A stretch of 41,251 nucleotides of DNA from Bacteroidales bacterium (GTDB lineage: Bacteria > Bacteroidota > Bacteroidia > Bacteroidales > ML635J-15): NCBI GenBank assembly GCA_027858835.1, contig JAQIBY010000046.1, positions 1-41,251 on the forward strand, written 5' to 3'. Made by a program: the position numbers and the translations under genes. Positions 7,580 to 40,182 of the stretch are shown one piece after another (positions within the stretch are counted from its first letter, which is position 1; each line of letters starts with the position of its first letter). The notes under the pieces were generated by a model that saw only the letters and a list, made by a program, of their open reading frames with translations, ran no database searches and was not told the DNA's origin.

Positions 7580-10500
7580 TTAAAAACTAAACTGTACACC
7601 AAGTCGGATTGTACGAGGCAGACTATAATTATAAGGGCTATTATAATACATGGAATAATAATTCCGATAAGCCTCTTCATCATTTTGAGTAGAAATCGCA
7701 TCCTGATAATCTGCATATGTCAAATAACCATTGTCATCCGGGTTTCCGGTATAACCATAAACGTTCAAGACATTTTTGATATTTAACAAGTTAGATACTT
7801 CAAGATAAATATTTAAGAATGCAAGTTTTTCTTTGGTTCCTGCATCTGAATCCGCTTCTTTCATTGTCAATTTAATATCACGGTCTAATTTCATATTAAT
7901 TCTCGTACGCCATGGTTTACGTGACCCATTAATTGAACCAACAAGTACCCCATTTTGCGGACGACTCTCTTTAGTATAAGGTGAACCGGAACCGGCATTT
8001 ACAACAAAGTTTACACCCATGTTTTGTAAGATGTCCGCGCCGAATAGCTGTGGTCCATCATAGGGTGTTCCGTTTGCTTTTCCACCGAAACGATAATCGA
8101 CTGTAATTGCAAAATTATGGCGTTGGTCAAAATTCAATGGGATTGTCGTTCTCAAGTTCGGTTGATCTGACTTAATAATATTTACACCAGACTCAAAACT
8201 GGAACCTGTACCATTCGCAAACTGCAAAGTGTAGGAGGCACGCATAGAAACATTGCCCGTTCTTCTCAAATCGTAGGCAATTCCAAATCCTTTTACAGTA
8301 CCAAAATCGATATTTCCATATGTGTAGTAATTCACTGGATATGCACCAATGACCGCAATGGCTTGCTGCATATCACGCATTTCACGATAAAATGCAGAGA
8401 GTTTCAATGAGGAGGTATTACCCAGCTTTTGTTGAAAACCAAGCTCGTAATCAATTGTCTTCTCTGTGGTTTGATTTGGATTGTTAATTGGGTCATTATT
8501 CAATTGACGAATATAAAGATATTCAACAGGATTCAAACGCGCATTATATGTAGGACGTTTTGAGAGAATATCATAGTGGGCAAAGAATAATGATTCATCT
8601 GAAATTGGGAATGAGAATGCAACACGTGGCATAAAAGTAACCTGTGGAGTGTAATCTTCAAATGCATTCTGATTCAATTCGTCTTGCTCAATTAAATATG
8701 GTGCAATACCATTGGAACTAAAAATCACTTCAGGATTTTGAGTTTCTGTACCATCAGCAGTGTACCATGTATTTCCATCGCGGAAACCATTAATCATGGA
8801 TGGATTGCTAATATCATTTACATATACAACTGCTCCTTCGGGAATATTTCCAGGAATTTCGTTACCACCTAAAATACCTGCCGGATCAACATCACCTACA
8901 CGGTAAGCATTGCTGAGCAAATAAGGATCTTTCAGTACATCCTGATTGGCGTCAAAACGGTCAACACGAACACCAATGTTGAAAATCAAATCTTTAAAGG
9001 CAAATTTGTCCTGAATATAACCAGCCACATAATTCGGTTGGAATGCACCAACCGGACGTTCTAAACTTCCGTATTCATTGGTTTTTGTAAAGAAATCGTC
9101 AAGGCTTGGGTTATATGTTAATTTTTCACCGGTATGGTCATATCCATAATATGTAACATATGAATTTCCCTGATTGAACAATTCATCCGCTGAGAAATAA
9201 GAAACATCAAACTCACTAGGATCATATGAGTTAACATCAATCCATTCAAGCGAATTTTCTGAAATTCCGAGATGCTCTCTAAAGCTACGGTCAAACTGTG
9301 TTTGAGATTCAGCATTATATAATCTTGGATAATTAATGGTATCCTGAAAAACACCGTTTGCATCATAAACCGGATTCGGGTTATTCAAATCACGCTCTAA
9401 AATATGGAAGTTCATAAGATCTCTAGCAAGACTCCAAAGTCCAAAAGGAGCAAGCCCATAATAATTATCAATACGTTGTTCAAACTCAAAACCAATGGAG
9501 ATTTCGTGATCTTTCACATCGGCAACACCACTGGCAGACACGCGGAATTGATTGTTATTAGTCTTTGAATATGATGTGTAAGGAACGCCTGGATTCTGAT
9601 ATAATCCATAAATTGAATTTGGTGCACTACCATTCATCAAACCATTACCAAGGATAACTGCATCACGGTTAATTAAAGCATCTTTACCGACATAATCGAA
9701 AAATTGTGTTGTATATAAAGCAAGGTCAGGATTTACATTACCGGCTGAAAAGTCATCTATCGGATAAACAAAAGTTTCATGAACCCAGCCCTCTAAATTA
9801 GTAACTGTATCCTCGCCCCACTCATAAAAACGGATAGGATTAGTATTAAATTTACCAACATATCCGTAATCAAAGAAATTATCTTGATGGCGTTTATCTT
9901 GTCTAATACTATTTGTCTGAGAGAAGTCCGCCTGAATTGTATAATATGCATTTTTAATGAGGGACTCATTTTCCTGCTCATCTTCAGCACTTTGATTTTG
10001 GAATTTCTGTGTTACACGTGCATAAGCTCTCCAGTTAGTGTAAAGCTGTTGTCCATTATTTTCTGAGTTGAATAATGAATTTGAGTAATCATAAAGTCGC
10101 TGATTTCTGTGATCAAAAGTTCCTCCAAGTGTGAAATTCAAGTTTCTAATTGGCTGAAAATCGAGTTTACCAGCAACATTGATCATTAATCGCTCAGCAT
10201 TCGGGCGAGCATCTACATTCTGAAAAGCTTCTTCAGTTAAATAGTCAGCATTTTGGAAAACAACCTGATTGTTTTGGTTTGGAACAACACGTAAAGGATT
10301 ATTGCGGATTGAGTCCACAATATCATCCTTTGCCATCCAAACGCCAATTGCACTTGGTGAGGCATCCTGAACATAACTCCCTTCAGCAGAAAGGAGGAAT
10401 CCGGCAATTGTCCGTTTGCGATTCGATCCTGCTTCTTCTGTTGTCCAAATCGGACCTGACAACATTAACCCACCAAGATTGTATCCATAAGGATCCAGAA

Positions 10501-11218
10501 ACTGTGAAGTCACAAGTTCTGCACCGCCAAAATATTGACTTGTCGGTCCTTTTGTTGTTACAGAAATAATTCCACCGGTTGCATCTCCATATTTTGCAGC
10601 AACACCACCTGTTACAACTGAAACCTGCTCAATGGCTGATTTTGGCACAGAAGAAGTTCCACGAACTTTCACACCATCTACATAATATACAGTTGCTTCA
10701 GAACGAGCACCACGAATGGAACCAACCGTTCCGTCTTCGGAATAAACCCCACCAACTGTTGTCGCAACAGCATCAGCAGAACGTCCCGGCATTTTCGAGA
10801 TTTCTTCTGAAGTCACTGTACCGCCGGATTCGGTTTGATCTTTAGCAATCAAAGGCACCTTGTACTCTTTAATTTCAACCTCGCCAAGCACTTCTGCAGA
10901 TGCGCTTAATTTAAAATCCTGAAAAGTAATTTTGCCGGCTGGAATTTGCACACTGTTATATTGCAAAGGTGCATATCCAACATAAGATGCTTTCACATCA
11001 TACTTTCCTGCCGAAATCGGTTTAATTGTAAATTGACCGTCAAAATCGGTCATCCCTCCGGTAACCACGTTACCGTTCTCTTCAACACTCACGTTAGCGA
11101 ATGGCACAGGCTCTCCTGTTGATGCATCTGTCACCTTACCCTTTAACGTTCCGGACTGAGCAAATGCACTTACAGTAAAAAGTAGTGCAGTAAAACCTAA
11201 TAGTAATCTCCGTAGCAT
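7580..11218 (-). CDS. TonB-dependent receptor with CarboxypepD-regulatory-like domain
   Basis: The protein has 1212 residues. A signal peptide ends at SAFAQ. Residues ~23-110 form a carboxypeptidase-regulatory-like (CNA-B-type) beta domain (GTLKGKVTDASTGEPVPFAN). A plug domain follows at ~125-230 with SEEISKMPGRSADAVATTVGG, GSIRGARSEATVYYVDGVKV and YGDATGGIISVTTKGP. The rest is a 22-stranded-type barrel ending PRTIRLGVQFSF, with the terminal Phe typical of BAM substrates. There is no SusD partner; the next genes are a T9SS cargo and a PorV-like protein. This arrangement points to surface-protein handling rather than classical polysaccharide uptake. The ligand cannot be told from sequence. Confidence 0.92.
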   Translation of the reverse strand: MLRRLLLGFTALLFTVSAFAQSGTLKGKVTDASTGEPVPFANVSVEENGNVVTGGMTDFDGQFTIKPISAGKYDVKASYVGYAPLQYNSVQIPAGKITFQDFKLSASAEVLGEVEIKEYKVPLIAKDQTESGGTVTSEEISKMPGRSADAVATTVGGVYSEDGTVGSIRGARSEATVYYVDGVKVRGTSSVPKSAIEQVSVVTGGVAAKYGDATGGIISVTTKGPTSQYFGGAELVTSQFLDPYGYNLGGLMLSGPIWTTEEAGSNRKRTIAGFLLSAEGSYVQDASPSAIGVWMAKDDIVDSIRNNPLRVVPNQNNQVVFQNADYLTEEAFQNVDARPNAERLMINVAGKLDFQPIRNLNFTLGGTFDHRNQRLYDYSNSLFNSENNGQQLYTNWRAYARVTQKFQNQSAEDEQENESLIKNAYYTIQADFSQTNSIRQDKRHQDNFFDYGYVGKFNTNPIRFYEWGEDTVTNLEGWVHETFVYPIDDFSAGNVNPDLALYTTQFFDYVGKDALINRDAVILGNGLMNGSAPNSIYGLYQNPGVPYTSYSKTNNNQFRVSASGVADVKDHEISIGFEFEQRIDNYYGLAPFGLWSLARDLMNFHILERDLNNPNPVYDANGVFQDTINYPRLYNAESQTQFDRSFREHLGISENSLEWIDVNSYDPSEFDVSYFSADELFNQGNSYVTYYGYDHTGEKLTYNPSLDDFFTKTNEYGSLERPVGAFQPNYVAGYIQDKFAFKDLIFNIGVRVDRFDANQDVLKDPYLLSNAYRVGDVDPAGILGGNEIPGNIPEGAVVYVNDISNPSMINGFRDGNTWYTADGTETQNPEVIFSSNGIAPYLIEQDELNQNAFEDYTPQVTFMPRVAFSFPISDESLFFAHYDILSKRPTYNARLNPVEYLYIRQLNNDPINNPNQTTEKTIDYELGFQQKLGNTSSLKLSAFYREMRDMQQAIAVIGAYPVNYYTYGNIDFGTVKGFGIAYDLRRTGNVSMRASYTLQFANGTGSSFESGVNIIKSDQPNLRTTIPLNFDQRHNFAITVDYRFGGKANGTPYDGPQLFGADILQNMGVNFVVNAGSGSPYTKESRPQNGVLVGSINGSRKPWRTRINMKLDRDIKLTMKEADSDAGTKEKLAFLNIYLEVSNLLNIKNVLNVYGYTGNPDDNGYLTYADYQDAISTQNDEEAYRNYYSMYYNSPYNYSLPRTIRLGVQFSF

Positions 11219-11266
11219 AGCTTTATGTTTATATTAACTTATACTTAACCCATTTTAAACAAAGCG

Positions 11267-11298
11267 TAAATATAGGACACAAAATTTAGCAAGCCAAA
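11267..11298 (-). promoter_or_regulatory. Predicted Bacteroidota promoter of the TonB receptor unit
   Basis: On the minus strand a -33 TTTG (11295-11298) is followed by exactly 20 bases and TATATTTA (11267-11274). That is 7 of 8 against the phylum -7 consensus TAnnTTTG. It lies ~49 bp upstream of the receptor ATG. Predicted from sequence only. Confidence 0.5.
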
Positions 11299-11318
11299 AA
11301 AAAAGTGCAATTTTCCAA

Positions 11319-11762
11319 TTAAAAATATTTTGTGTTCAATATTTCAGAAAAAATCACAGCTTTTTTGATATCAAAACTTTTTGCGATGTCGCTTGCATTT
11401 TGATTTTTATTAACATTTTGTTTAAAAGATTCTCTTAAATCGTCAGCCGGAGAATCATTCGGCGTATTTTTGTTTGCAGCATTCAAATCATCATTCTCAT
11501 TTGTTAAAATTGCACTGTTTTGAATTGCATTCGGCGTATTATTCATCCGTTCATTTTCAAAAGCCTCTGCTTTTTCCCGACGCAATGCTTCAATTTCATC
11601 CGAAAAAGTCCCTAACAAACTTCCAAACCCTTGCGGGGAATCCTGAGATACATTCTGAACTCGTAACTTTTCCTTTTTATTTTTTGACAAAGCACGTATA
11701 ATTGGCCCGATGACAATAAAAAGTACTAGTAGCAATAAGTTAAAAAGATCTCCTAATTCCAT
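11319..11762 (-). CDS. Hypothetical single-pass membrane protein
   Basis: The protein has 147 residues from the ATG at 11762 (MELGDLFNLLLLVLFIVIGP). A GTG two codons upstream is a weaker start. Residues ~6-24 form one transmembrane segment followed by a basic stretch (ALSKNKKEKLR), so the rest should face the cytoplasm. The remainder is hydrophilic, Asn/Asp-rich and probably disordered, with a short helical Glu/Arg patch (FSDEIEALRREKAEAFENER). No family is recognised. It follows the 127-aa basic protein by 22 bp on the same strand, so the two may be an operon. Confidence 0.6.
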   Translation of the reverse strand: MELGDLFNLLLLVLFIVIGPIIRALSKNKKEKLRVQNVSQDSPQGFGSLLGTFSDEIEALRREKAEAFENERMNNTPNAIQNSAILTNENDDLNAANKNTPNDSPADDLRESFKQNVNKNQNASDIAKSFDIKKAVIFSEILNTKYF

Positions 11763-27178: not shown

Positions 27179-27251
27179 GGTCCTGTAGCTCAGTTGGCAG
27201 AGCAGCAGACTCTTAATCTGCGGGTCGAGAGTTCGAGCCTCTCCGGGATCA
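27179..27251 (+). tRNA. tRNA-Lys (anticodon CTT)
   Basis: The 73-nt cloverleaf has acceptor GGTCCTG with CGGGATC plus A (two G-T pairs), D-arm GCTC/GAGC, anticodon stem GCAGA/TCTGC around CTCTTAA (anticodon CTT), and T-arm GAGAG/CTCTC around TTCGAGC. CCA is not encoded. Accessory DNA begins right after it. Confidence 0.97.
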
Positions 27252-27252
27252 C
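27236..27252 (+). repeat. 17-bp direct repeat, copy 1 (tRNA-Lys 3' end)
   Basis: AGCCTCTCCGGGATCAC covers the 3' half of the T-arm and the acceptor strand of tRNA-Lys. An identical copy lies at 27812-27828. A duplicated tRNA 3' end is the usual trace of tyrosine-recombinase integration, so this is a candidate attachment site. No integrase gene is visible. Confidence 0.7.
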
Positions 27253-27256
27253 AAAA

Positions 27257-27327
27257 CAGTTTGGAGTGTGAGTATTGAGGGAAGAGGGCAAGACTATCCC
27301 TCGACGCTCACACTCGTCCTCAAACTG
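27257..27327. other. Long stem-loop between tRNA-Lys and the four-helix-bundle gene
   Basis: CAGTTTG-x2-GTGTGAG on the left (27257-27272) pairs with CTCACAC and CAAACTG on the right (27307-27327). An inner stem GAGGGA/TCCCTC lies between them. There is no T-run, so it is not a simple terminator. The left arm partly recurs after the gene (AGTTTGGAGTGTG near 27709-27721). The layout, a stem-loop beside an IVP-family gene, recalls intervening sequences of 23S rRNA. Confidence 0.6.
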
Positions 27328-27358
27328 AAAAGACTTAAAAGCTTAACTTTCATTACTT

Positions 27359-27709
27359 ATGTTTGACTTTGAAAATCTAACCGTTTATCAAAAAGCGAAA
27401 ACCTACAACAAAGAAATACACAAATTCATTGTGAAATCTGAATTGAATCGTACGATAAAAGATCAATTGCGTAGAGCTTCTTGCAGCATAATGCTCAATA
27501 TTGCAGAAGGCGCAGGTCGTTTTACAAATCCGGACAAACGAAACTTTTATGTTATTGCAAGAGGGTCAGTTTTTGAGTGCGTTGCCATTTTTGATTTATT
27601 GAAAGAAACTGAAGGGCTATCAGATCAAACACACTCAACGTTTTATAAACACCTAGAGGAATTATCAAAAATGTTGTTTTCGATGATACAAAACCTCACA
27701 AAGAAATAG
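27359..27709 (+). CDS. Four-helix-bundle protein (23S rRNA IVP / Avd-type family)
   Basis: The 116-residue all-helical protein has the family signature: DFENLTVYQKAKTYNKEIHK, DQLRRASCSIMLNIAEGAGR, then DKRNFYVIARGSVFEC. The family includes proteins encoded in 23S rRNA intervening sequences and the accessory variability determinant (Avd) that assists reverse transcriptases of diversity-generating retroelements. Which role applies cannot be told from sequence. A candidate DGR target gene lies ~0.7 kb away, but in the opposite orientation and without a visible reverse transcriptase. It sits between the two 17-bp tRNA-Lys repeats. Confidence 0.88.
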   Translation: MFDFENLTVYQKAKTYNKEIHKFIVKSELNRTIKDQLRRASCSIMLNIAEGAGRFTNPDKRNFYVIARGSVFECVAIFDLLKETEGLSDQTHSTFYKHLEELSKMLFSMIQNLTKK

Positions 27710-27960
27710 TTTGGAGTGTGGTCTGAGTATTGAGTGTGTGAGTAAAAACACGGTACTCACTTTTTTTTAGGAGAGGCGAGAAGTCTATCCCGATGAAGGA
27801 TGATTTCGGGAAGCCTCTCCGGGATCACTACAACGAACAAAGCCTTTGGCGTTTTTGTGCAAAGTGTAAATATTTCATTTGCACAAAATTTGCACGTTTT
27901 TATGTATTTAGCAATGAAAATATAAATGTTTTTTAAAGCTTATGATTTTTAGGTTTTTTA
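27710..27960. other. Non-coding interval with tRNA-derived repeat and folded segment
   Basis: No convincing gene is seen. The interval holds a partial copy of the stem-loop arm (near 27710-27745) and a folded segment in which GGAGAGGC (near 27770) pairs with GCCTCTCC (27813-27820), enclosing CCCGA/TCGGG. The second 17-bp tRNA-Lys repeat overlaps this fold. AT-rich sequence follows to the terminator. Confidence 0.5.
27812..27828 (+). repeat. 17-bp direct repeat, copy 2
   Basis: This copy is identical to 27236-27252, the 3' end of tRNA-Lys. Flanking bases on both sides differ. With copy 1 it brackets 576 bp containing the four-helix-bundle gene. Confidence 0.7.
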
Positions 27961-28374: not shown

Positions 28375-28405
28375 ACCTGCCTGCACTGCGTTTCGGCAGG
28401 CAGGT
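28375..28405 (-). terminator. GC-rich hairpin just after the variable region
   Basis: A perfect 10-bp stem, ACCTGCCTGC (28375-28384) with GCAGGCAGGT (28396-28405), encloses an 11-base loop. It starts 10 bp beyond the stop of the FISUMP-type gene and is followed on the minus strand by TTTATTTT, so it can act as a terminator. DGR target genes also need a hairpin right behind the variable region for efficient homing, and its place and GC content suit that too. Confidence 0.65.
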
Positions 28406-28414
28406 CAAAAGTGA

Positions 28415-28540
28415 CTAATCCTTAATGCAACGCACAGAGAGACCGTTCGCTCGGGCGTAGCTGCTCATGCCGGCAGAGCTGCTGAAGAAGTATAGGCTGC
28501 GCGAACCGGCACCGCTAACCGCCCTTGACCAATAGTAGCC
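28415..28540 (-). other. Candidate DGR variable region (VR)
   Basis: This is the last ~40 codons of the FISUMP-type gene. Between the fixed flanks GYYWSRAV and RANGLSVRCIKD, most codons end in C with the first two bases varied (AGC, GCC, CGC, TAC, TTC, GGC). That is what adenine-specific mutagenesis of an AAC-rich template would leave. No near-identical adenine-rich template repeat was found elsewhere in the window. Confidence 0.6.
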
Positions 28541-29176
28541 GCTGGAACCCACAACGTCGAGCGAACCATTGCTGACGTCGCGGCCGCCTGCCACGGGCAA
28601 TTTAAGCGGAGAGGCAAAAGCACCGGCTGCATCATCGCTACTCCAGCTTTGGCGTTCGGCTTCCCACTCAGCTTCAGTAGGCAGGCGGTAACCACTTGGG
28701 CATGGATTGTTTATTCCGCTTACGCCCTGCCATAGATTGTCGTTTTGTGGGTTGCGCCAATCGTTAGGTGGATTATCAGCTACAATAAAATCTCCATGTC
28801 CAGGATTGTCGGTATTGCTCAATGTATGCGTCGTGTCTGATGTTCTGTTTTCATGTCCATCAGCGGATCTACCCCATTGGTATAAATCGCCGTAAGCAGC
28901 AGCATCGGTACTGCTTGTTGCAACCTGCGAAGCTCCCAGATTTCTGTCCATCCAAATTTCACCGGTAGTGGGATTTGTTACAATGTTTAGGCTATCTATG
29001 GTTGGACTGTAAAATATTACACTGTCAACCTCTGTATTAACATTGTACTGCCCTACTACATCTCCTGCTTTCATTATGTACATCGTGTCGTTTTGGGCAA
29101 AAAGAGTTGAAAGTGTAAAGGTGAAAATTAAAAGTGTTGCAGATACAATTTTGCTTAATTTATTCATTGTTTTCAT
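28415..29176 (-). CDS. Secreted FISUMP / C-type-lectin-like protein, probable DGR target
   Basis: The protein has 253 residues. A signal peptide ends at LFAQ (ATG at 29176; 29167 also possible). The N-terminal MYIMKAGDVVGQYNVNTEVD plus SVIFYSP segment recurs in Bacteroidota surface proteins. The rest is a FISUMP/FGE-like domain: GEIWMDRNLGASQVATSSTD, YGDLYQWGRSADGHE, NPCPSGYRLPTEAEWEAER, and a C-terminal YYWSRAV...NGLSVRCIKD. This is the C-type-lectin fold used by DGR variable proteins to bind diverse ligands. Its 3' end shows the codon pattern of a variable region. It is 17 bp downstream of a T9SS-tailed gene, so they form an operon. The gene is more GC-rich than its neighbours, suggesting transfer. 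Confidence 0.85.
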   Translation of the reverse strand: MKTMNKLSKIVSATLLIFTFTLSTLFAQNDTMYIMKAGDVVGQYNVNTEVDSVIFYSPTIDSLNIVTNPTTGEIWMDRNLGASQVATSSTDAAAYGDLYQWGRSADGHENRTSDTTHTLSNTDNPGHGDFIVADNPPNDWRNPQNDNLWQGVSGINNPCPSGYRLPTEAEWEAERQSWSSDDAAGAFASPLKLPVAGGRDVSNGSLDVVGSSGYYWSRAVSGAGSRSLYFFSSSAGMSSYARANGLSVRCIKD

Positions 29177-29193: not shown

Positions 29194-29703
29194 TTATTGT
29201 TTAATGATTTTTACTGTTTTTACTTCGGTAGCATTACTGTAACGACACAGGTAAATACCTTCAGACAAGTGGGTAATGTCTAATGAAAGAACTCCTTCAT
29301 TACTTACTTGCCGGCTTACCAAAGTTTTACCTTGAACGTTGAGTATGCTCAGTGTACCTTCTGCTTTAGCTATTCCGGTTAAGTCGATGTTCAATGTATT
29401 ATTTACCGGGTTAGGATAAACATTTAACATTTGGTTTTGAACTGACAAGGGCTCGTTTAAACCTGATAAAGTATCCGAAAAATTCAGATATCTCAAATCG
29501 CTCAGAGCATACACACTGCTACTGTTGTCGGTTTTAGTAAGTGTGAGATTGCCCGACGCGAAACTTATTTTTTGTATGCTATTCAAAGTATATGCGGTTT
29601 GTGTTCCGCTACGTTCTTTTACATACATAGTTTGTGCTTGTAATCCTGTCAGTCCGAGACCTAACAAGAGTACTGCACTTATTTTTAATCGCTTTTTTTT
29701 CAT
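29194..29703 (-). CDS. Secreted protein with T9SS type A sorting domain
   Basis: The protein is 169 residues from the ATG at 29703 (MKKKRLKISAVLLLGLGLTG), which gives a standard signal peptide ending LQAQ; an ATG at 29736 would precede it. The N-terminal part (MYVKERSGTQTAYTLNSIQK, ALSDLRYLNFSD) resembles the lead segment of many Bacteroidota surface proteins. The C-terminal ~75 residues are a T9SS type A tail: LNVYPNPVNNTLNIDL, GTLSILNVQGKTLVSR, HLSEGIYLCRY and VKTVKIIKQ. Its partner gene, the candidate DGR target, follows 17 bp on, so the two may form one surface complex. Confidence 0.85.
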   Translation of the reverse strand: MKKKRLKISAVLLLGLGLTGLQAQTMYVKERSGTQTAYTLNSIQKISFASGNLTLTKTDNSSSVYALSDLRYLNFSDTLSGLNEPLSVQNQMLNVYPNPVNNTLNIDLTGIAKAEGTLSILNVQGKTLVSRQVSNEGVLSLDITHLSEGIYLCRYSNATEVKTVKIIKQ

Positions 29704-29800
29704 TTTTGACCTGTATTTTAATTGGTTAATATTCATTGTTTTTCTGTGTTGCTGTTTTTTTTATTCTGTTTGTCTGTGTTGTTTCGGGTTTTTCAATTAT

Positions 29801-29949: not shown

Positions 29950-30999
29950 CTATTGTATCAAATTAATAATTATATGAAATATTTCTTTATTCTTTGAATG
30001 AATTGTTTTAGCGACTTTTAAATGTCCAACATTTCTGAAATCTGAAGTTACATCAACATAACCAATGGTTTTATCTAATTTAAAGTCACTGGGATAATTA
30101 ACACTTAAAATATGCTCTTTATATTTTTCACATTCCTTATCAAATATTTTGTTTTTACCTAATACATAAACTATCATAAAGTAAAGGTCAAGAGATTTTA
30201 TATATTTATGGCATTTTAAAATATGAGTTTCGGTATAGCCTTTATCTTTAAGTATTAAGCCTTCCCATAGAGCTATTTGCAAACCTGAAGATTGAATGAC
30301 AAAATCAGCCGAACCTGCATCTTTTCCTCCCTTTATACTACCATCTTTTTGTTTCTGAATAAGTGTTGTCCCAACTCTTGGTTGGTCTTCAATGCTCCAT
30401 CCCCATATTGGAAGTCTTAATTTTAGGATGGCTAATAATAGGTCATTAAAACGGTTTTCATGTGTAATTTGTCTTATAGCCTCAATCTTTGAAATCATAA
30501 TCTTAGAAGCTTGAATTAATTCATTTAAAATAAACTCACTAAGATTAGTTTTACCATTTAAATTATTTGGTAAAATTTTGGGAATATCTTCTTCTCTTTG
30601 GTTTGATAAATTACCTAAAATTAATTTTAATTTTCTTATTGTGTCTTCATCTGGATATTGTTTTTTAAGTTCCTCAACAATCGGAGGAATATTTAATTGA
30701 TTTTCCGAGTAGTATTTGTGTGCTTTATTTATGTAATCAAATGCCAATTCGTGTAAATCTCTTTCAAAATAATAGTTATAGATGACTGAAATTATTTCAT
30801 CATCATACAAGTAGCTTTTTGACAATCGATTAATTATTTGGTCAAATCTTGTTGCATCTTTTGATGCTATAAAATAATATAAATTGTTACTATCTATAGA
30901 TTCTGAAAAAAGAGATAATTCTTTCTTTTCTTCATTTGAAAGATTGTCGACAAAATTATCCCAATCCTGTTTCGCTTGATTTAATAATACTTGATTCAT
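29950..30999 (-). CDS. Unknown protein with PD-(D/E)XK-like C-terminal motif
   Basis: The protein has 349 residues and no named family I recognise. The N-terminal ~160 residues are helical and charged. A possible nuclease core is GGKDAGSADFVIQSSGLQIA followed by LWEGLILK: Asp232, a beta strand, then Glu246, with Asp and Glu 13 residues apart as in PD-(D/E)XK enzymes, and Lys251 near. Its ATG overlaps the stop of the 946-aa gene by four bases (ATGA), so the two are translationally coupled. The pair occupies one cassette between palindromes A and B. A nuclease effector with a large sensor partner is plausible but unproven. Confidence 0.75.
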   Translation of the reverse strand: MNQVLLNQAKQDWDNFVDNLSNEEKKELSLFSESIDSNNLYYFIASKDATRFDQIINRLSKSYLYDDEIISVIYNYYFERDLHELAFDYINKAHKYYSENQLNIPPIVEELKKQYPDEDTIRKLKLILGNLSNQREEDIPKILPNNLNGKTNLSEFILNELIQASKIMISKIEAIRQITHENRFNDLLLAILKLRLPIWGWSIEDQPRVGTTLIQKQKDGSIKGGKDAGSADFVIQSSGLQIALWEGLILKDKGYTETHILKCHKYIKSLDLYFMIVYVLGKNKIFDKECEKYKEHILSVNYPSDFKLDKTIGYVDVTSDFRNVGHLKVAKTIHSKNKEIFHIIINLIQ

Positions 31000-33836
31000 T
31001 TTGTTTGAATTGCTTTTAAAGTTTCAGCACGGTAGAGGTGAAAAGCATACCGTACATTTTTTACATCATTAGACAAAAGGGATTTTAAAATTTGAATAGC
31101 TTCATCATACTTTTTGTCATTGTAAAGTTTAAAGAGAGCAACAAAGAATTTTTTGAGACTTTCTCCTTTTTTATTTATAGGGGAATTAAAATGTTCTTGT
31201 TTTGGAATAGGGATACTATTGAGTTTATTCAAATCCTTTTCCTTAAATGCTAAAAGCAAGTTTATCTCAAATAGAAAGTTCTTTGTATTTTCATCATTAT
31301 ACTTAACCTTTTTGAAATGTTTTTGAATTCTTTCTACGAGAGGCTCTGATAACTCCCAATGATTTGTGGAATTTACTGCTTCAACTAATGCATATTTTAG
31401 TTCTGTTGTAGTGAAACTATTTTCAATAAAGTCCTCGATTTGCACATCACTTATTCGCTTTGAAATAATCGATTGGAGTTCTTTTGAATCTAAAATATTT
31501 ATTGCAGTCAACATTCTACCAATATCTGTGCTATGAGTAAAAAAAGCTTCAACAAAGTTGCTTTGCTTTTCTTTATTGAAGAAGTTAATACTTCTATATA
31601 GTAAAGATGTCAGATGTTGATAATACATATCATAACCAAATACACTAAACATTTCATTAAAAACATCTATTCTCTTTTGAGGAATATCGTCAATAGAATA
31701 CAATAAAGAAAACTCTCTTATCCATTTTTCAAGTTTATTTAATGTTGATTTTACAGGTAACCCATCTAATTCAAATGAGTGCTTTTTTTGATTGATTGAA
31801 ATAAAACCAAGCATCATTGATTTTAAATAAAGCTTTACCTTTTCAAATTGCTCTTTGTTTTGTTTATCGTATTTATCACTACTAATATTGAAATTCAATG
31901 CAGTAGAAAAACTACGATTGAACTCTTGAAGGACTGCGTTATCCTCAAAATGCAAATACAAATAACCCCAATCGATTATCTCAAAGCCGAATTCATTTAC
32001 ACCTCTTTTTGCCTCTCTTTTTTCAGTACCTGATGGACTATAAGTTTGAACATCAATATTTGTCACTAAATAGAATTGAGATAGATTGTCTTGCAATGAA
32101 GAAACTAAAGTCTTTACTGAAGTTTCACTTTTTTCTTTTTGTTCTTTTGATAACTCATCTTCTGAAATACGGAGATTACTTATCCGTAAAACCTCAATTG
32201 ACAAATCAATAAGTCCAGATTTAAGATGTAAGAACTCTGTATGATTCGAGTTTGTAGATTGAAATTTCTTCTTGATGTAATTTGTAATATGAGGCAGTAA
32301 ATAAGTTGCAAGTTTTGGGCTTATTGGCGGACTTGGGTATGTACTAATGTTTGTAATTCTTTTATTGCTTAATTTCTTTAGCACTTCATCATATCGTTTT
32401 TTTAATTCGTTATGGTTTATAATGCTGTTTCTGTTATTGGAGTTTATACTGAATACTTTTTCAGCTAAGTCAATTATAATTTTTGCTAAGAGCTCAGCTT
32501 TTTCATTGTCATAAGATGGTGTTGAAGCAAGTTGTTCTAATGTGAAATCAAACATCTCAAGCCATAGATGATTTTTTGTTTCACAACTTTCTTCAAATTT
32601 TCTATCATTGTTTGATTGCTCTGATAATAAAACATTATCAATTTCAATTTTATCAATTAACTTGAAAGCAATAGGTATTAATTCTGAATCTACAAGTAGG
32701 TAAGGGATTATATATGGGAATTCTTTCTTAATATCGTTGTATAATGTCCAAAGTAAAAACGGTCTTGATGTGTCTTTGATGATTTTTAAAATATTTTCAT
32801 ATTTCGTTGAATGTATTGTATCATTAATAGCAATAATTCTAAGTAATGAATGACAGAAACTTCTTGTTTTTTGATAATCAAATGTGTCACGGAATCTCCA
32901 CTTATGATAATTTACACTTTCAATAAAATCAAAGGCACTCTCATAATTGAATTCAACAACTGGAATTTCTGTTTTAATATCAATGTGTTGATAGCTGTTT
33001 GCATCAAGCCAAATTTTACTAAACTCATTATCTGATTTTAGTAAATCAATTTCGGAATTTAAAAATGACATTGCAAGTTCACACATCTTTGATGTGTTCT
33101 TGTAGCTTAAGTAACTTCCTAAATCATTAATCCAGATTTGAGTTCCTGAAATAAGTTTGTAATATTTTCTGAACTCTAAAATAGTAGCTTCTTCACCACC
33201 AACTAACAACCAAATTGTAGAAGCAATTTCATTTTTTAAATGTCTTGAATAATTGTTTCCTTTCCAATAATACAATCCAATTTTTGAATCAAGTCCGATA
33301 ATTTCTCTTTCAACAAGATTATCTATTGTTATATCTTTTGAAGCATGGGCATTTAAAACCTCTTCCAATTCATCATTTGTAATAGTGAGTTTCGAGTCTT
33401 CAAAACATCTCTGGGAATAAATTTGCAAGCAACGAATTAAATCATTTTTATCAGCAGGTATTTCAATAGATTTACCTTCATTTTCATAGTATCCAACTTG
33501 CCAAACAAAATGCCGAATTAATTCGGGCATTACAATTTCATCTGCAACTGTTCTTATCCAGTTAGTCTTTTCAAAGTCCTCAAATGTCAAAGTAGTTTTG
33601 TTTGCTTGATTGTATTCTTTAACTATTTCAAGAAACACCCTCTTGCTTCTTTCAATAAACTTCAAATTGAGAATGATATGAGAAATGATTAATGAAAAAT
33701 TGAATTGAAGATTTTCAGATTTTACTTTTTGGTCAATGTAATTTGTATAAGAATTATTATTACGAGCTAAATACTTTAATCGTTCACTTAATGACTTTAA
33801 TTTTTCTTCAATCGTATGTGTTATATTAAATTGCAT
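30996..33836 (-). CDS. Large helical protein of unknown function
   Basis: The protein has 946 residues, no signal peptide and no membrane segments. It is predominantly alpha-helical and rich in Lys, Glu, Asn and Ile. I see no Walker motif, protease triad or zinc site. The C-terminal ~100 residues (HFKKVKYNDENTKNFLFEIN, FFVALFKLYNDKKYDEAIQI) look like helical repeats of TPR type. It is the first gene of a coupled pair with the PD-(D/E)XK-like protein and starts 33 bp after palindrome B. Its size, solitary pairing and setting resemble defence-system sensors; this is inference. Confidence 0.75.
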   Translation of the reverse strand: MQFNITHTIEEKLKSLSERLKYLARNNNSYTNYIDQKVKSENLQFNFSLIISHIILNLKFIERSKRVFLEIVKEYNQANKTTLTFEDFEKTNWIRTVADEIVMPELIRHFVWQVGYYENEGKSIEIPADKNDLIRCLQIYSQRCFEDSKLTITNDELEEVLNAHASKDITIDNLVEREIIGLDSKIGLYYWKGNNYSRHLKNEIASTIWLLVGGEEATILEFRKYYKLISGTQIWINDLGSYLSYKNTSKMCELAMSFLNSEIDLLKSDNEFSKIWLDANSYQHIDIKTEIPVVEFNYESAFDFIESVNYHKWRFRDTFDYQKTRSFCHSLLRIIAINDTIHSTKYENILKIIKDTSRPFLLWTLYNDIKKEFPYIIPYLLVDSELIPIAFKLIDKIEIDNVLLSEQSNNDRKFEESCETKNHLWLEMFDFTLEQLASTPSYDNEKAELLAKIIIDLAEKVFSINSNNRNSIINHNELKKRYDEVLKKLSNKRITNISTYPSPPISPKLATYLLPHITNYIKKKFQSTNSNHTEFLHLKSGLIDLSIEVLRISNLRISEDELSKEQKEKSETSVKTLVSSLQDNLSQFYLVTNIDVQTYSPSGTEKREAKRGVNEFGFEIIDWGYLYLHFEDNAVLQEFNRSFSTALNFNISSDKYDKQNKEQFEKVKLYLKSMMLGFISINQKKHSFELDGLPVKSTLNKLEKWIREFSLLYSIDDIPQKRIDVFNEMFSVFGYDMYYQHLTSLLYRSINFFNKEKQSNFVEAFFTHSTDIGRMLTAINILDSKELQSIISKRISDVQIEDFIENSFTTTELKYALVEAVNSTNHWELSEPLVERIQKHFKKVKYNDENTKNFLFEINLLLAFKEKDLNKLNSIPIPKQEHFNSPINKKGESLKKFFVALFKLYNDKKYDEAIQILKSLLSNDVKNVRYAFHLYRAETLKAIQTK

Positions 33837-34002: not shown

Positions 34003-36528
34003 TTATTTCGTTCTCTTGTAATAATTTTCAGAATAATCTGATTTTAATGAATCTATATCAAGTTTATGAGTATTGATATACTCTTGAATCTTTTCATTCG
34101 TTAATGAGTCTAGTTCGTATTTGCTAAATTCTTTAAAAAAAGATTTTACATTATTTCTTAACAGACGTAATTTCCCCCTTTTAATAATTTCTACATGATG
34201 TGTAAAGTCACCATGGTAGGATAAGTTTCTAGTTGGAATTATTAAGAACCTCTTTACAGGTGAATCTCCATATTCTCCTTCAAACCATGCACAGTGCGTA
34301 TTCATTTGACCTGATTCATGTTTGTTTATCTCCTGTCTGTCAACATTTACTTCACTTTTGCATTCAAAAATGAAACATTGATTACTAACACCGCACCATA
34401 AATTATCTGGACCTTTTTTAAACTCTTTATCAGGTCGTTCGCTTAGAAAACCTAACATATGTCCTAAATCTTTCAAGGCAGATTCAAATTTATCTGAAGA
34501 TGTACCAAATTCTAAATCAGAAAGTACACCTTCAACAGAAATTATTAACTCTTGATAGTTATTATGGTTCTGTATCCAATCTCCGATTCTTTTTGTTCTG
34601 CTTTCATTTATAAATTCTAATTTACTATATACAATTCCTTCATTTGGTTTTAGGAGCTCATGATTTTTCAAAAAAGCACTTATTTGCAATTTGTTTGAAT
34701 CAGTTTTACTCTGTAAGTATTTATATCTTGCCATTAATTGAAGATACCACCCTTTTTCACTTTCCTCAGTACAATGGTCATCAATAATTTGCTGAATTAG
34801 TTCACTTGCTTTTTCATAATGTCCTGAGTAATTTAAAACTGCAGCCTGTCTTTCCAATACAAGGGTATCATAGATTTTACTCTGTTGAGTTGATTGTGCA
34901 ATTTTATCCATTTCTTCGACATAAAACTCTTTCCAGTCTTCATCACGTTTTAGGGATTGTCTCATTAATGATTTGACCACTTTGAAAGGTTCATTTCGAT
35001 CTGTAATTTCTTCAGATGCCATATCTGCTATCTCCAACCCAATTTCAATTTGTTTCTTTGTCTGTGGTGAAAAATACTTATTTGTTCTTGAACTCTTTAT
35101 AAATTTAATTAAATCAGCCCCAATAAGCAAGATTAAACTGTAGTCTTTTTCGCCTCGTACTGAACGACCTAATCCTTGTTCAATTTTTTGTGCAATCTTG
35201 ATATTCATTGAGTCACTTTCTATCCTGTTTGATTCTTCATATCTCTCAGCCAAAGAGAAAAAGAAAGGCTTGCCGTCAAAAATCAGAATTCTACAAGTTT
35301 CGTCAGGTAAGTCTATACCATCATATCGATTAGCAAAAACTACTGTTCGTTCAAAATTACATTTTTTCAAATGGTTAATAATAATTGGTACTTCATGTGA
35401 CTTAGGTACTAATGATCCAAGATGAAAATATAGTTCAGTCTTGCTAAATGATGAAACTAATGATACAATCCCATAATTTTTTTCTGATGGTTTTGCCAAG
35501 TGATTGACCATTGTAATCCTATCAAGAGTTTCGTCTATTAGGGAAGGAATTACAATCATCTTTTCACCTGACCATATTTGATCAGGGTTTGTTAATGGAA
35601 TCTTAATTGCATCTAGATTAAATCCTAGGCCTTTTATGAAAAAAGAATCATCCTGTGTTGTTGCGGACATTAATATTCTTTGGCTTGCTTTATTAAATGA
35701 TGAGAATTTTTCAATAGGTATATGTATTGGAGTGATTTCAATATTCTGACCAGAAATAAAAGCTTGACAGTTTTTTATGTTGTCTTTAATAAATGGCCAA
35801 GAGAACATAATCTCTGTTTCTTCCTTGTACTCCGATAATATCTGCAGAACTTCAGCCGATTTATCAATCCAATTCCAATACGGTATTGGAAGATATGAAT
35901 TATAGTCTCCGTTCTTAATCTCCAAAAATGTGCCCTCACCCTGTTCTGGTAATGCATCGCTAAATAACTCAATAAGTTTTTTGTAAACTAAATGGTCTTT
36001 GTTTAAATTTATGGTAAATGTATCTTTGATAGAATCTATACAAGCATGCGAATCGTCCAGAATAATATTTTCAACTGGTACATAATCATTATTCAATCCA
36101 AATATTGTTTTACCGTTAAATACTTTTTGTACGTGAGTTATTAATATTCTTTTACCATCGAGAAATTCATTAGGCAAAGAATTATCCTCATCAATTGAAC
36201 AATAAGGGATGCCAAACTTTTTAGCATCTTGTCTAACCTGTTGTACTAAATATTTATTCGGACAAATAAACAAGCAAGAGCCACTATTTGAGTTTATCTT
36301 TGACAATAAAATCAGCAAACCGATCAAAGTTTTTCCCTCTCCAGTATGAAGTTTGATGATTAGATCCTTTTCATTCACCTTCTTTTCAAACCATTCATTC
36401 AGAATATTTAATTGAGCAGGCCGTAACGGACCAGTTATACTTCTTCTATCAAGAGAATCATATATTTCAATTGGATTTGTTTTTTTCTCACTTGAAGTCT
36501 TCTTTAATCTTTTCCTGAAATCTACCAT
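34003..36528 (-). CDS. Superfamily 2 helicase fused to a C-terminal PD-(D/E)XK-like nuclease
   Basis: The protein has 841 residues. The N-terminal helicase has Walker A HTGEGKT (61-67), a DDSH box in IILDDSHACI, motif III SAT in ILMSATTQ, and motif VI QGLGRSVRGEK. This is closest to DinG/XPD-like or DEAD-family defence helicases. A helical middle contains TPR-like segments. Near the C-terminus, GPDNLWCGVSNQCFIFECKS gives Asp708, Glu722 and Lys724, the D-x13-E-x-K pattern of PD-(D/E)XK nucleases. A DNA- or RNA-unwinding, cleaving enzyme is implied, most likely anti-phage or anti-plasmid. It is alone in its cassette between palindromes B and C, with a 164-bp leader. Confidence 0.85.
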   Translation of the reverse strand: MVDFRKRLKKTSSEKKTNPIEIYDSLDRRSITGPLRPAQLNILNEWFEKKVNEKDLIIKLHTGEGKTLIGLLILLSKINSNSGSCLFICPNKYLVQQVRQDAKKFGIPYCSIDEDNSLPNEFLDGKRILITHVQKVFNGKTIFGLNNDYVPVENIILDDSHACIDSIKDTFTINLNKDHLVYKKLIELFSDALPEQGEGTFLEIKNGDYNSYLPIPYWNWIDKSAEVLQILSEYKEETEIMFSWPFIKDNIKNCQAFISGQNIEITPIHIPIEKFSSFNKASQRILMSATTQDDSFFIKGLGFNLDAIKIPLTNPDQIWSGEKMIVIPSLIDETLDRITMVNHLAKPSEKNYGIVSLVSSFSKTELYFHLGSLVPKSHEVPIIINHLKKCNFERTVVFANRYDGIDLPDETCRILIFDGKPFFFSLAERYEESNRIESDSMNIKIAQKIEQGLGRSVRGEKDYSLILLIGADLIKFIKSSRTNKYFSPQTKKQIEIGLEIADMASEEITDRNEPFKVVKSLMRQSLKRDEDWKEFYVEEMDKIAQSTQQSKIYDTLVLERQAAVLNYSGHYEKASELIQQIIDDHCTEESEKGWYLQLMARYKYLQSKTDSNKLQISAFLKNHELLKPNEGIVYSKLEFINESRTKRIGDWIQNHNNYQELIISVEGVLSDLEFGTSSDKFESALKDLGHMLGFLSERPDKEFKKGPDNLWCGVSNQCFIFECKSEVNVDRQEINKHESGQMNTHCAWFEGEYGDSPVKRFLIIPTRNLSYHGDFTHHVEIIKRGKLRLLRNNVKSFFKEFSKYELDSLTNEKIQEYINTHKLDIDSLKSDYSENYYKRTK

Positions 36529-37531: not shown

Positions 37532-39355
37532 CTATTTAATCCTTATTAATACGACATAATCAGAGATGATTTTAATTTTTTCAGTCAACGTAGTATTCAT
37601 TATTGACTTGTCATTTGGTAAATCCAATGTTGTTGGTAATACGTCTATTAAATTTTTTAAATAACTTGACTTAATAGCGTACGATACATTATCAGCAACA
37701 TCGGCTCTAATTTTTGCTGAATTTACTCCAATTAAGTTTCCATCAAAATCAAATAAAGGTCCACCACTATTTCCTGGCTGAATTGGTGTAGTCATTTGAT
37801 AAGTCGAGATGTCTCCTTGAAATCCTGTCTTCGAGCTAATTTTACCATCTGTAAATTTAATTTCTGTCCCCATTACAGTTAACGCCATCGGAAAACCTAA
37901 TGCGAAAACATTGGAACCAACATCTGTAATTGAGGTCTTAAAATTATAAGGTATTGTTGAGAAAGGGCTAAATGACATATCATCAACTTTTAATATAGCT
38001 AAATCATTAAATTTGTCGCTTTGAATTACTTTAGCTTTATAATTTTGTTTTTGACCATTTCGTATAAATTCAATTTCAATTTCAGAAGATTCAGCTATTA
38101 CGTGGTAATTGGTAGCAATATAGCCATCTTTACTAATAAAGAAACCTGTACCATTTCCTTTCCAATCACCAAAGTCAGAATTAGTATTGTTGTCAGCAAC
38201 TAAAGAACTTTCTAAATCTTGTTTTACGATTAAATTCTCAAATAGAACTGATTTTTTCCCAGAAAGGATAGAGAAGCCAATATAGTTCCCGCGAAAACCA
38301 TAAAATTCTTCAGAATGAACTAAACTACCATTAATAGAAAAATACATTTTGTCTTTCACTCTTAGAATTTTAACCTGATTTCTTTGGTAATCCTGATTAA
38401 TTGTATTTGACTCAGTCCATTCTACAATTTCAATATTAATTCCTTCTGTTTTGCCCCCGATAAGATAATATCCATTTGCACTTATGTAAAAATAATAGTA
38501 ATTGTCCCAGTCCTTAAAACCCCAAATTAAACCGTGTCCATTATTCTTTTCGCCAGATTTAAAATCAATTATCGTTTCAATTGAAAAATCTTCGGTAAGA
38601 CTAAGTGGTATATTTATAGTCTGCCTAAAACCGTTTTCAGTTTTGGTTTCCATTAAAAGTCCTTTTTCTGGCAAAATTGAACTTTTATAATCTTTTTCAC
38701 TTTCAACTAATTGCCAATCATTAATGTTTTCATCGTTTGCAAAACTTTCGTAGAAGACTTTTTGACATTTGCCAAACTCATCACATTCTATAAAGAATTT
38801 ATCAGTTAGAACTCCATTTTTAAAAACAAATTTTCTATACAACTTGCCTGTTTCATAATAATCAAGCCAAGTACCATCAAGAACTCCGCTACTGTATTCT
38901 ATTTCTCTCGCTTTATTTCCGTTTTCATAATAGGTTTTAAACAAACCATTGTAATCGCCGTCTTTATATGTAGCATCGTATCTTAAATTGCCATTCTCAT
39001 ACCAAATTTTATGTGTAAGAACTTGTCCATTTTTGTCGTGTAAGATTTCAAACTCCTTATTCCCACTTTTAAAGTAACCTTTGGAGAAACCTATAAATAT
39101 TGATTTTGAATCATCGTATTTATCAATGTACGAAGCTCCATCAATTCGAGATTGTAATTCGCCAGAAATAAAGTAATCTTTAACTTCTCCAACGGGGTCT
39201 CCATTTTCATTAGTCTTAAAAACCCTATAAAACTCGGCATTGTTCTTAGAAGTTCCTTTCCATTCGGAATCATAATAGAACTTCTGTTGTGTCTGGCTAA
39301 ATACTGAGATTGAGTATGAAGTAATTAATAACAGTATTAGTAGTTTCTGTCTCAT
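37532..39355 (-). CDS. Secreted MORN-type repeat / trypsin-like serine protease
   Basis: The protein has 607 residues. A signal peptide ends SVFSQ. Residues ~25-190 hold YwqK/MORN_2-type repeats (HKIWYENGNLRYDATYKDGD, GLFKTYYENGNKAREIEYSS, GTWLDYYETGKLYRKFVFKN). Residues ~200-375 are a LamG-like beta-sandwich. The C-terminal HtrA-like trypsin domain has His418 (IATNYHVIAES), Asp451 (NDLAILKVDD) and Ser530 (QPGNSGGPLFDFDG), so the triad is complete. No PDZ domain follows. The ATG is two bases after the stop of the next trypsin-like gene, so they form an operon in one cassette. Confidence 0.88.
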   Translation of the reverse strand: MRQKLLILLLITSYSISVFSQTQQKFYYDSEWKGTSKNNAEFYRVFKTNENGDPVGEVKDYFISGELQSRIDGASYIDKYDDSKSIFIGFSKGYFKSGNKEFEILHDKNGQVLTHKIWYENGNLRYDATYKDGDYNGLFKTYYENGNKAREIEYSSGVLDGTWLDYYETGKLYRKFVFKNGVLTDKFFIECDEFGKCQKVFYESFANDENINDWQLVESEKDYKSSILPEKGLLMETKTENGFRQTINIPLSLTEDFSIETIIDFKSGEKNNGHGLIWGFKDWDNYYYFYISANGYYLIGGKTEGINIEIVEWTESNTINQDYQRNQVKILRVKDKMYFSINGSLVHSEEFYGFRGNYIGFSILSGKKSVLFENLIVKQDLESSLVADNNTNSDFGDWKGNGTGFFISKDGYIATNYHVIAESSEIEIEFIRNGQKQNYKAKVIQSDKFNDLAILKVDDMSFSPFSTIPYNFKTSITDVGSNVFALGFPMALTVMGTEIKFTDGKISSKTGFQGDISTYQMTTPIQPGNSGGPLFDFDGNLIGVNSAKIRADVADNVSYAIKSSYLKNLIDVLPTTLDLPNDKSIMNTTLTEKIKIISDYVVLIRIK

Positions 39356-39357
39356 AA

Positions 39358-40182
39358 TTATGATTTTTTAATTTCATTAAACTTAAAGCCTTCAATTACC
39401 TTAAATGCCTCAATAAATAAATGAATTTTATTTGCAACTAAACAAAAATATTTTCCCTTTTTAAACTCGGTCATAATTCCAATTAATCTATAATTTAACC
39501 AATATTCTTTTGTTTGAGGGTCTTGGTTAAATTCGATGAACCATAAGCCGCAACCACTTATCCCATAGAAATGTGTATTTACTTTTTTCTTGTCTCCTGT
39601 TTCAATGTCAGTTCCTTTCCCTTTCATTTCTACCAAGAAAAAGTCGGATTTATTGTAACCATAGAAAGTATAAGGTTTCTCATTGGTTGCATTGGTCAGA
39701 TAAAATGATGCACCAGTATCTAATTTTCTATTATTAAACTTTATGTTATTTTCAGGAAAACCCAAAATACAATAATTTGCTGCATCTAGCATTTGATTAT
39801 GCTTTGATATTTTATCTAATGTCAGAAATTTGAATGGTTTAGATAATGGCTCAACCATTTCTGTTGCAATTTTAATATATGCCAAATCAACACCTTTACT
39901 TTTATCAATATCCGTGTATTTAATATCTCCGATTACATTAATGTATTTTTCTTTATCAACTCTGATAAATAATTGATTTTGTTCTTCAATTAAGTAATCT
40001 GCAATGTGAGAGGCTGTTAATATAAAATGTGTGTTATAAATCAAAGCAAGTACACCAGTCCCAAACGGTCTTAAACCTTCATCAGTCTTGTAAAAGAATT
40101 GCATTGTAAACCTGAGTAAATCTTTGTCGATTAACTCCTTTACTAATTCATCAGTTTCCTTATTTGATTCTGTTTTAATCAA
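39358..40182 (-). CDS. Cytoplasmic trypsin-like serine protease
   Basis: The protein has 274 residues from a TTG at 40182; there is no ATG before residue 27, and a stop lies just upstream. No signal peptide is present. The trypsin-like triad is visible: His59 (FILTASHIADYL), Asp99 (KGVDLAYIKI) and Ser209 (GISGCGLWFI). The motif GxSGCG replaces the common GxSGGP. Cytosolic trypsin-like proteases often accompany defence effectors, which fits the cassette context, but the substrate is unknown. It starts 25 bp after palindrome E and is two bases upstream of the secreted protease gene. Confidence 0.8.
   Translation of the reverse strand: MIKTESNKETDELVKELIDKDLLRFTMQFFYKTDEGLRPFGTGVLALIYNTHFILTASHIADYLIEEQNQLFIRVDKEKYINVIGDIKYTDIDKSKGVDLAYIKIATEMVEPLSKPFKFLTLDKISKHNQMLDAANYCILGFPENNIKFNNRKLDTGASFYLTNATNEKPYTFYGYNKSDFFLVEMKGKGTDIETGDKKKVNTHFYGISGCGLWFIEFNQDPQTKEYWLNYRLIGIMTEFKKGKYFCLVANKIHLFIEAFKVIEGFKFNEIKKS

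Follow-up and report, generated by a model that had tools for sequence, protein, structure and literature searches.

A very probable DGR variable region at the 3′ end of a FISUMP protein gene in a Bacteroidales genome where no DGR reverse transcriptase was found

Results

Gene organization at the locus

The DNA analysed in this study (hereafter the window) is a stretch of 41,251 nucleotides from a Bacteroidales bacterium (GCA_027858835.1, contig JAQIBY010000046.1), the genome of which comprises 3.6 Mb in 184 contigs and is 99.07% complete. The features relevant to the present analysis are listed below.

28415-29176, minus strand: variable-protein gene, 253 aa, with a FISUMP domain and a likely N-terminal signal peptide (open reading frame and homologs in relatives)
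28421-28960, minus strand: FISUMP (Fib_succ_major) domain, residues 73-252 (profile match)
29093-29176, minus strand: likely signal peptide (MKTMNKLSKIVSATLLIFTFTLSTLFAQ), as read from the translation
28418-28600 (about), minus strand: 183-nt variable region (VR), homologous without gaps to the template repeats (TRs) of L111, L182 and L128
28408-28413, minus strand: CACTTT motif right after the stop codon, common to many family members
28376-28404, minus strand: perfect 9-bp inverted repeat enclosing an 11-nt loop, located 10 nt beyond the stop codon and followed by TTTATTTT; candidate DGR target hairpin/cruciform
29194-29736, minus strand: upstream neighbour, 180 aa, with a type IX secretion sorting tail (PF18962, E 4e-14)

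An earlier note on this DNA had assigned a candidate VR to 28415-28540, and the open reading frame confirmed that this segment is the C-terminal end of the minus-strand gene at 28415-29176. The boundary placed at the stop codon held as well, while the other boundary had to be moved about 60 nt farther upstream, to about 28600.

The domain matches of the 253-aa protein to PF09603 (E 3e-6) and TIGR02145 (E 2.6e-9) were both below the curated cut-offs, and the protein is probably exported, judging from its N-terminus. The earlier note had named the C-type-lectin fold as the scaffold; two AlphaFold runs gave models of too low confidence (pLDDT 43 and 45) to confirm it, a profile search of the PDB returned a single weak and irrelevant match, and no protein-level match was obtained in phage and plasmid collections.

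Elsewhere in the window, the region 27179-27850 consists of a tRNA-Lys followed by a four-helix-bundle gene of the S23/IVP type, with the 3′ end of the tRNA (CCTCTCCGGGATCAC) repeated after the gene, suggesting that a small segment was inserted at the tRNA. The PF05635 four-helix protein encoded there (27359-27709) was considered as an Avd and rejected, being of the ordinary S23/IVP type and located beside a tRNA-Lys. An 841-aa helicase-like protein encoded at 34003-36528 matched the candidate defence family PDC-S28 (1057 bits), and two genes beside it (29950-33836) had no match in Pfam or PADLOC. Also near this candidate defence gene, at 37532-40182, are an unannotated gene and, adjoining it, a gene for a trypsin-like protease that carries MORN repeats.

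Adenine footprint of the variable region

Codons ending in C accounted for 22 of the last 46 codons of the gene as compared with 53 of the remaining 207 (Fisher P 0.004), an enrichment that alone is unconvincing evidence for a DGR. A comparative test was made between the window gene and its paralog on contig C153 of the same genome, which align ungapped over 183 nt (28600-28418), with the TR of Balneolaceae ANBcel3 as the template reference. The two VRs differed at 34 sites, 30 of which are A in the ANBcel3 TR (P 1.3e-16), although A occupies only 51 of its 183 sites over the compared region. The differences fell on codon positions 1, 2 and 3 in a ratio of 18/12/4, and all but three lay at sites where at least one of two external TRs has A. 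Upstream of the VR, in contrast, 107 of 420 sites differed over 140 aligned codons of the same gene pair (26/23/58 by codon position), and this predominance of third positions indicates ordinary divergence outside the VR. That two clearly diverged genes carry VRs nearly identical outside the template adenines suggests that both VRs were replaced from a shared source once the genes had diverged.

The VR holds about 17 AAC/AAT template codons. Across 53 homologous C-termini, entropy was close to its maximum at the first two positions of the variable codons, whose third position was mostly C; these codons alternate with invariant ones, and the VR forms the 3′ end of the gene. The template of the window gene itself is absent from the assembly and the TRs used for comparison belong to other genera; against the foreign TR of Flavivirga jejuensis (L128), for example, the window VR showed 43 mismatches, 12 of them at non-A sites. 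Mismatches of the latter kind would be expected from template divergence, although they do not prove it. The A-site-specific differences, together with the complete DGR cassettes attached to close homologs (see below), bear out the earlier proposal of a DGR variable region.

Motif and hairpin downstream of the variable region

The stop codon of the window gene is followed by TCACTTTTGA and then by the 9-bp perfect inverted repeat, and the fold of this 3′ flank was calculated at -21.6 kcal/mol. The CACTTT motif was present in 25 of 82 family 3′ flanks and in 24 of 626 control 3′ flanks (P 8e-13, an optimistic value since the sequences are related). A hairpin of at least 7 bp occurred in 325 of the 626 control flanks, and the hairpin by itself is therefore not diagnostic. 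The motif together with a strong hairpin, built from different stems, was found in several flanks such as those of L111, L164, L092 and L128, while the flank of the L111 TR had neither. The possibility that the window hairpin is a dispersed repeat was rejected, as it is present in a single copy in both the window and the genome. It may be a transcription terminator; in phage BPP-1, a hairpin/cruciform at the corresponding place is required for efficient homing (Guo et al., PMC3240598).

The hairpins after two Flavivirga targets in L128 (about 7780-7815 and 10590-10630) have identical outer stems, and their inner parts (CCGCCGAAAAGGCGGA) are mutual reverse complements. An inversion of the stem-loop, possibly a trace of cruciform cutting, could account for this arrangement.

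DGR cassettes in related genomes

In Balneolaceae ANBcel3 (L111, JASCXY010000031.1), a target 71% identical to the window protein is followed in order by an accessory gene, a reverse transcriptase (RT) gene, an avd gene and a TR. The accessory protein showed a weak match to MutS domain I, the RT carries the motifs IGNLTSQ and YVDDM, and the Avd is of the bAvd type (PF22296). The TR and VR of this cassette differed at 25 of 167 sites, 23 of which are A in the TR. TRs of the same FISUMP type were also found beside DGR RTs in genomes G042, G391 and G449, as well as in G008 and G010, two members of the window genome's own family. Remote targets occur in this FISUMP family: G449 has a contig (L141) carrying three targets whose matching TR lies on a different contig (L182), with 25 of 35, 30 of 39 and 28 of 42 mismatches at A.

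Of the homologous targets, 58 are followed by 400 nt or more of sequence; a recognisable part of a cassette adjoins 12 of these, and the cassette is complete only in L111. Fragments of RT were identified at L107, L119 and L146, and a TR is kept without RT at L128 and L144. A search of 50 genomes with family members revealed a DGR-like RT in 13, several of these being fragments. In the cultured isolate Flavivirga jejuensis (L128, NZ_JAUOEL010000009.1), the region 10001-11417 contains a target, an accessory gene and a TR, with neither RT nor Avd in between. All 21 mismatches between this VR and the adjacent TR are at A, and no RT was detected either locally or in the assembly with the ANBcel3 RT as query (E 1e-15). 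Loss of the RT with retention of the target thus looks recurrent in this family, although most of the genomes are draft MAGs.

A second copy of the Flavivirga target, 2.8 kb away, has 4 differences over 122 codons of the upstream domain and 28 differences in the VR. In L144 (10668-11254, a Saprospiraceae assembly), a target is followed by a C-terminal fragment of Avd and a TR with no RT, which looks like an internal deletion of a cassette.

Search for the DGR machinery in the window genome

The earlier note had found neither RT nor TR within the window, with which our analysis agreed, and had proposed looking through the genome for an adenine-rich near copy of the VR beside an RT. When the whole genome was searched with the VR and the inferred TR as queries, only other VRs were matched. 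A PF00078 (RVT_1) profile search of the contigs for a DGR RT gave as its sole match a group II intron maturase on contig C100, which was rejected as a DGR RT on the basis of its TIGR04416 score (400.9 bits, group II intron), and a whole-genome search with the ANBcel3 DGR RT found nothing beyond this group II intron RT. The best match to the ANBcel3 Avd in the whole genome had an E value of 0.34.

With the ANBcel3 accessory protein as query, a single place in the genome was recovered, namely a 48-codon remnant that immediately follows the C153 target and shares 79% identity with the N-terminus of the Flavivirga accessory protein. The gene breaks off in the interior of the contig rather than at its end, with 2.4 kb of unrelated sequence following. 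Such a truncated gene makes loss of the cassette at least as likely as a remote DGR. Of the earlier description of the window gene as a remote target, the lack of RT and TR nearby stood, whereas the whole-genome searches turned up no DGR RT, Avd or TR elsewhere in the genome. Alternatively, the remnant could have arisen when part of a cassette was duplicated, the cassette itself persisting unassembled. The C153 paralog resembles the window gene on its upstream side as well, being preceded by a gene whose N-terminus is similar to that of the 180-aa neighbour.

Besides that of the window, the genome contains five closely related FISUMP domains (six in all), one on C153 and four in a single protein encoded on contig C93. 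In pairwise tests, the adenine bias of the C93 domains was weaker, and their VRs appear to be older or to derive from another template. Downstream of the C93 target lies a thioredoxin-like gene resembling the gene after the ANBcel3 TR, with a DUF1016 gene in between; the position of the cassette would here have been occupied by something else.

The C93 protein itself (L009, 3332-8974) is 1880 aa long, its four window-like FISUMP domains, each with a VR-like end, alternating with PKD-like repeats, and a similar multi-VR protein is encoded on contig C103 of genome G034. DUF1016 genes are located at the expected cassette position downstream of both the C93 and the C153 targets (L009, 2537-3145; L010, 2668-3732), and that of C93 matches the candidate defence family PDC-S02.

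Discussion

The error-prone copying of TR RNA by the RT, with replacement of adenines and substitution of the product for the VR, is the established mechanism of DGRs. We consider it very probable that the VR of the window gene originated in this way, the mechanism at this gene being inferred from its footprint. A TR rich in adenines would have been transcribed into RNA and copied into cDNA by an error-prone DGR RT together with Avd, adenines being swapped at random during the copying. Directed by the 3′ terminus of the VR and the downstream hairpin, this cDNA would then have replaced the existing VR at the gene's 3′ end. Such mutagenic retrohoming would alter about 17 codons of the probably exported FISUMP domain, presumably on its ligand-binding face, while the fixed codons would hold the scaffold.

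An exported protein with a plausible binding domain could also have a binding loop under ordinary positive selection, the C-ending codons then arising from codon bias. Such selection predicts neither the A-site specificity (P 1e-16) nor frozen third positions beside saturated first and second ones, nor the DGR cassettes and remnants beside homologs, and is very unlikely, the least credible of the explanations considered. Scarcely more credible is gene conversion, in which the C-terminus would be shuffled among the FISUMP copies (the four C93 domains and C153) with no need of a retroelement. Six related copies, including that of the window, are indeed available in the genome, but conversion is unable to restrict differences to template adenines; moreover, no exact block common to the window VR and a C93 copy is longer than 19 nt, and of the 18 template-AAx codons in the window gene just 8 are found at the same place in another copy.

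A different question, which concerns the fate of the cassette and leaves the DGR origin of the VR untouched, is whether the system still operates. The non-A differences between the window and C153 VRs (three) are about as few as those between VR and TR in the intact ANBcel3 cassette (two), suggesting that the rewriting was recent, and both copies appear to have been last rewritten from one common template. This low divergence would suit an intact and active DGR, whose RT, Avd and TR would be unassembled or carried by a mobile element while the window gene served as a live remote target, as would the existence of remote targets in the family (the L141 targets of the L182 TR) and the motif and hairpin kept at the window gene. 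That reading is a serious contender, though we hold it to be somewhat short of probable, given that the whole-genome searches of a 99% complete assembly yielded no DGR RT, Avd or TR and that the C153 accessory gene is cut off within its contig rather than at the end. Loss of the cassette from this lineage since the last rewriting is the reading to which we lean, ranking it ahead of absence from the assembly.

A broader proposal, which we regard as rather unlikely, is that non-autonomy is frequent among the cassettes of this Bacteroidota-centred FISUMP family, with repeated deletion of the RT, and often of Avd or TR, and persistence of the target, the hairpin and sometimes the TR. If so, a rare RT would diversify the targets in trans, or else the targets would have become frozen once a burst of diversification was over. 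Two stages of this process would be represented by the window genome and by Flavivirga, in which the TR is kept, the VR is mutated purely at A and no RT was found. RT-first DGR surveys of assemblies overlook targets that have no adjoining RT, and these can be located by their adenine footprints, their homology to TRs and the motif and hairpin behind the VR. As loss of the RT with the target kept appears to recur, even in a cultured isolate, the question is raised whether orphan-target proteins are frozen or still diversified in trans.

Orphan targets are already known, and the recurrence of RT-less cassettes in this family is the part worth following. Isolates of Treponema denticola that lack RT and TR carry orphan DGR targets interpreted as leftovers of lost DGRs (PMC4891356), and the window gene resembles these in combining a target with an adenine-footprint VR and a genome in which neither RT nor TR was found. 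The species and protein differ, and the T. denticola templates came from sister strains with intact systems, whereas those used here came from other genera. Fib_succ_major is among the listed DGR target domains of human microbiomes, and unlike those targets the window gene has no cassette (PMC4159848). Balneolaceae ANBcel3 shares with the window a homologous variable protein, the same adenine pattern of the TR, and the motif and hairpin after the VR, but has the accessory gene, RT, Avd and TR all beside its target. Flavivirga jejuensis (L128) likewise has a homologous target and no RT found, and differs from the window genome in keeping its TR. The variable protein Mtd of Bordetella phage BPP-1 also has an A-specific footprint at the 3′ end of its gene and a hairpin shortly past the stop codon; it is a phage tail protein with a complete cassette, and its hairpin has an 8-bp stem and a loop of GRNA consensus, as compared with the 9-bp stem and 11-nt loop of the window gene (PMC3240598).
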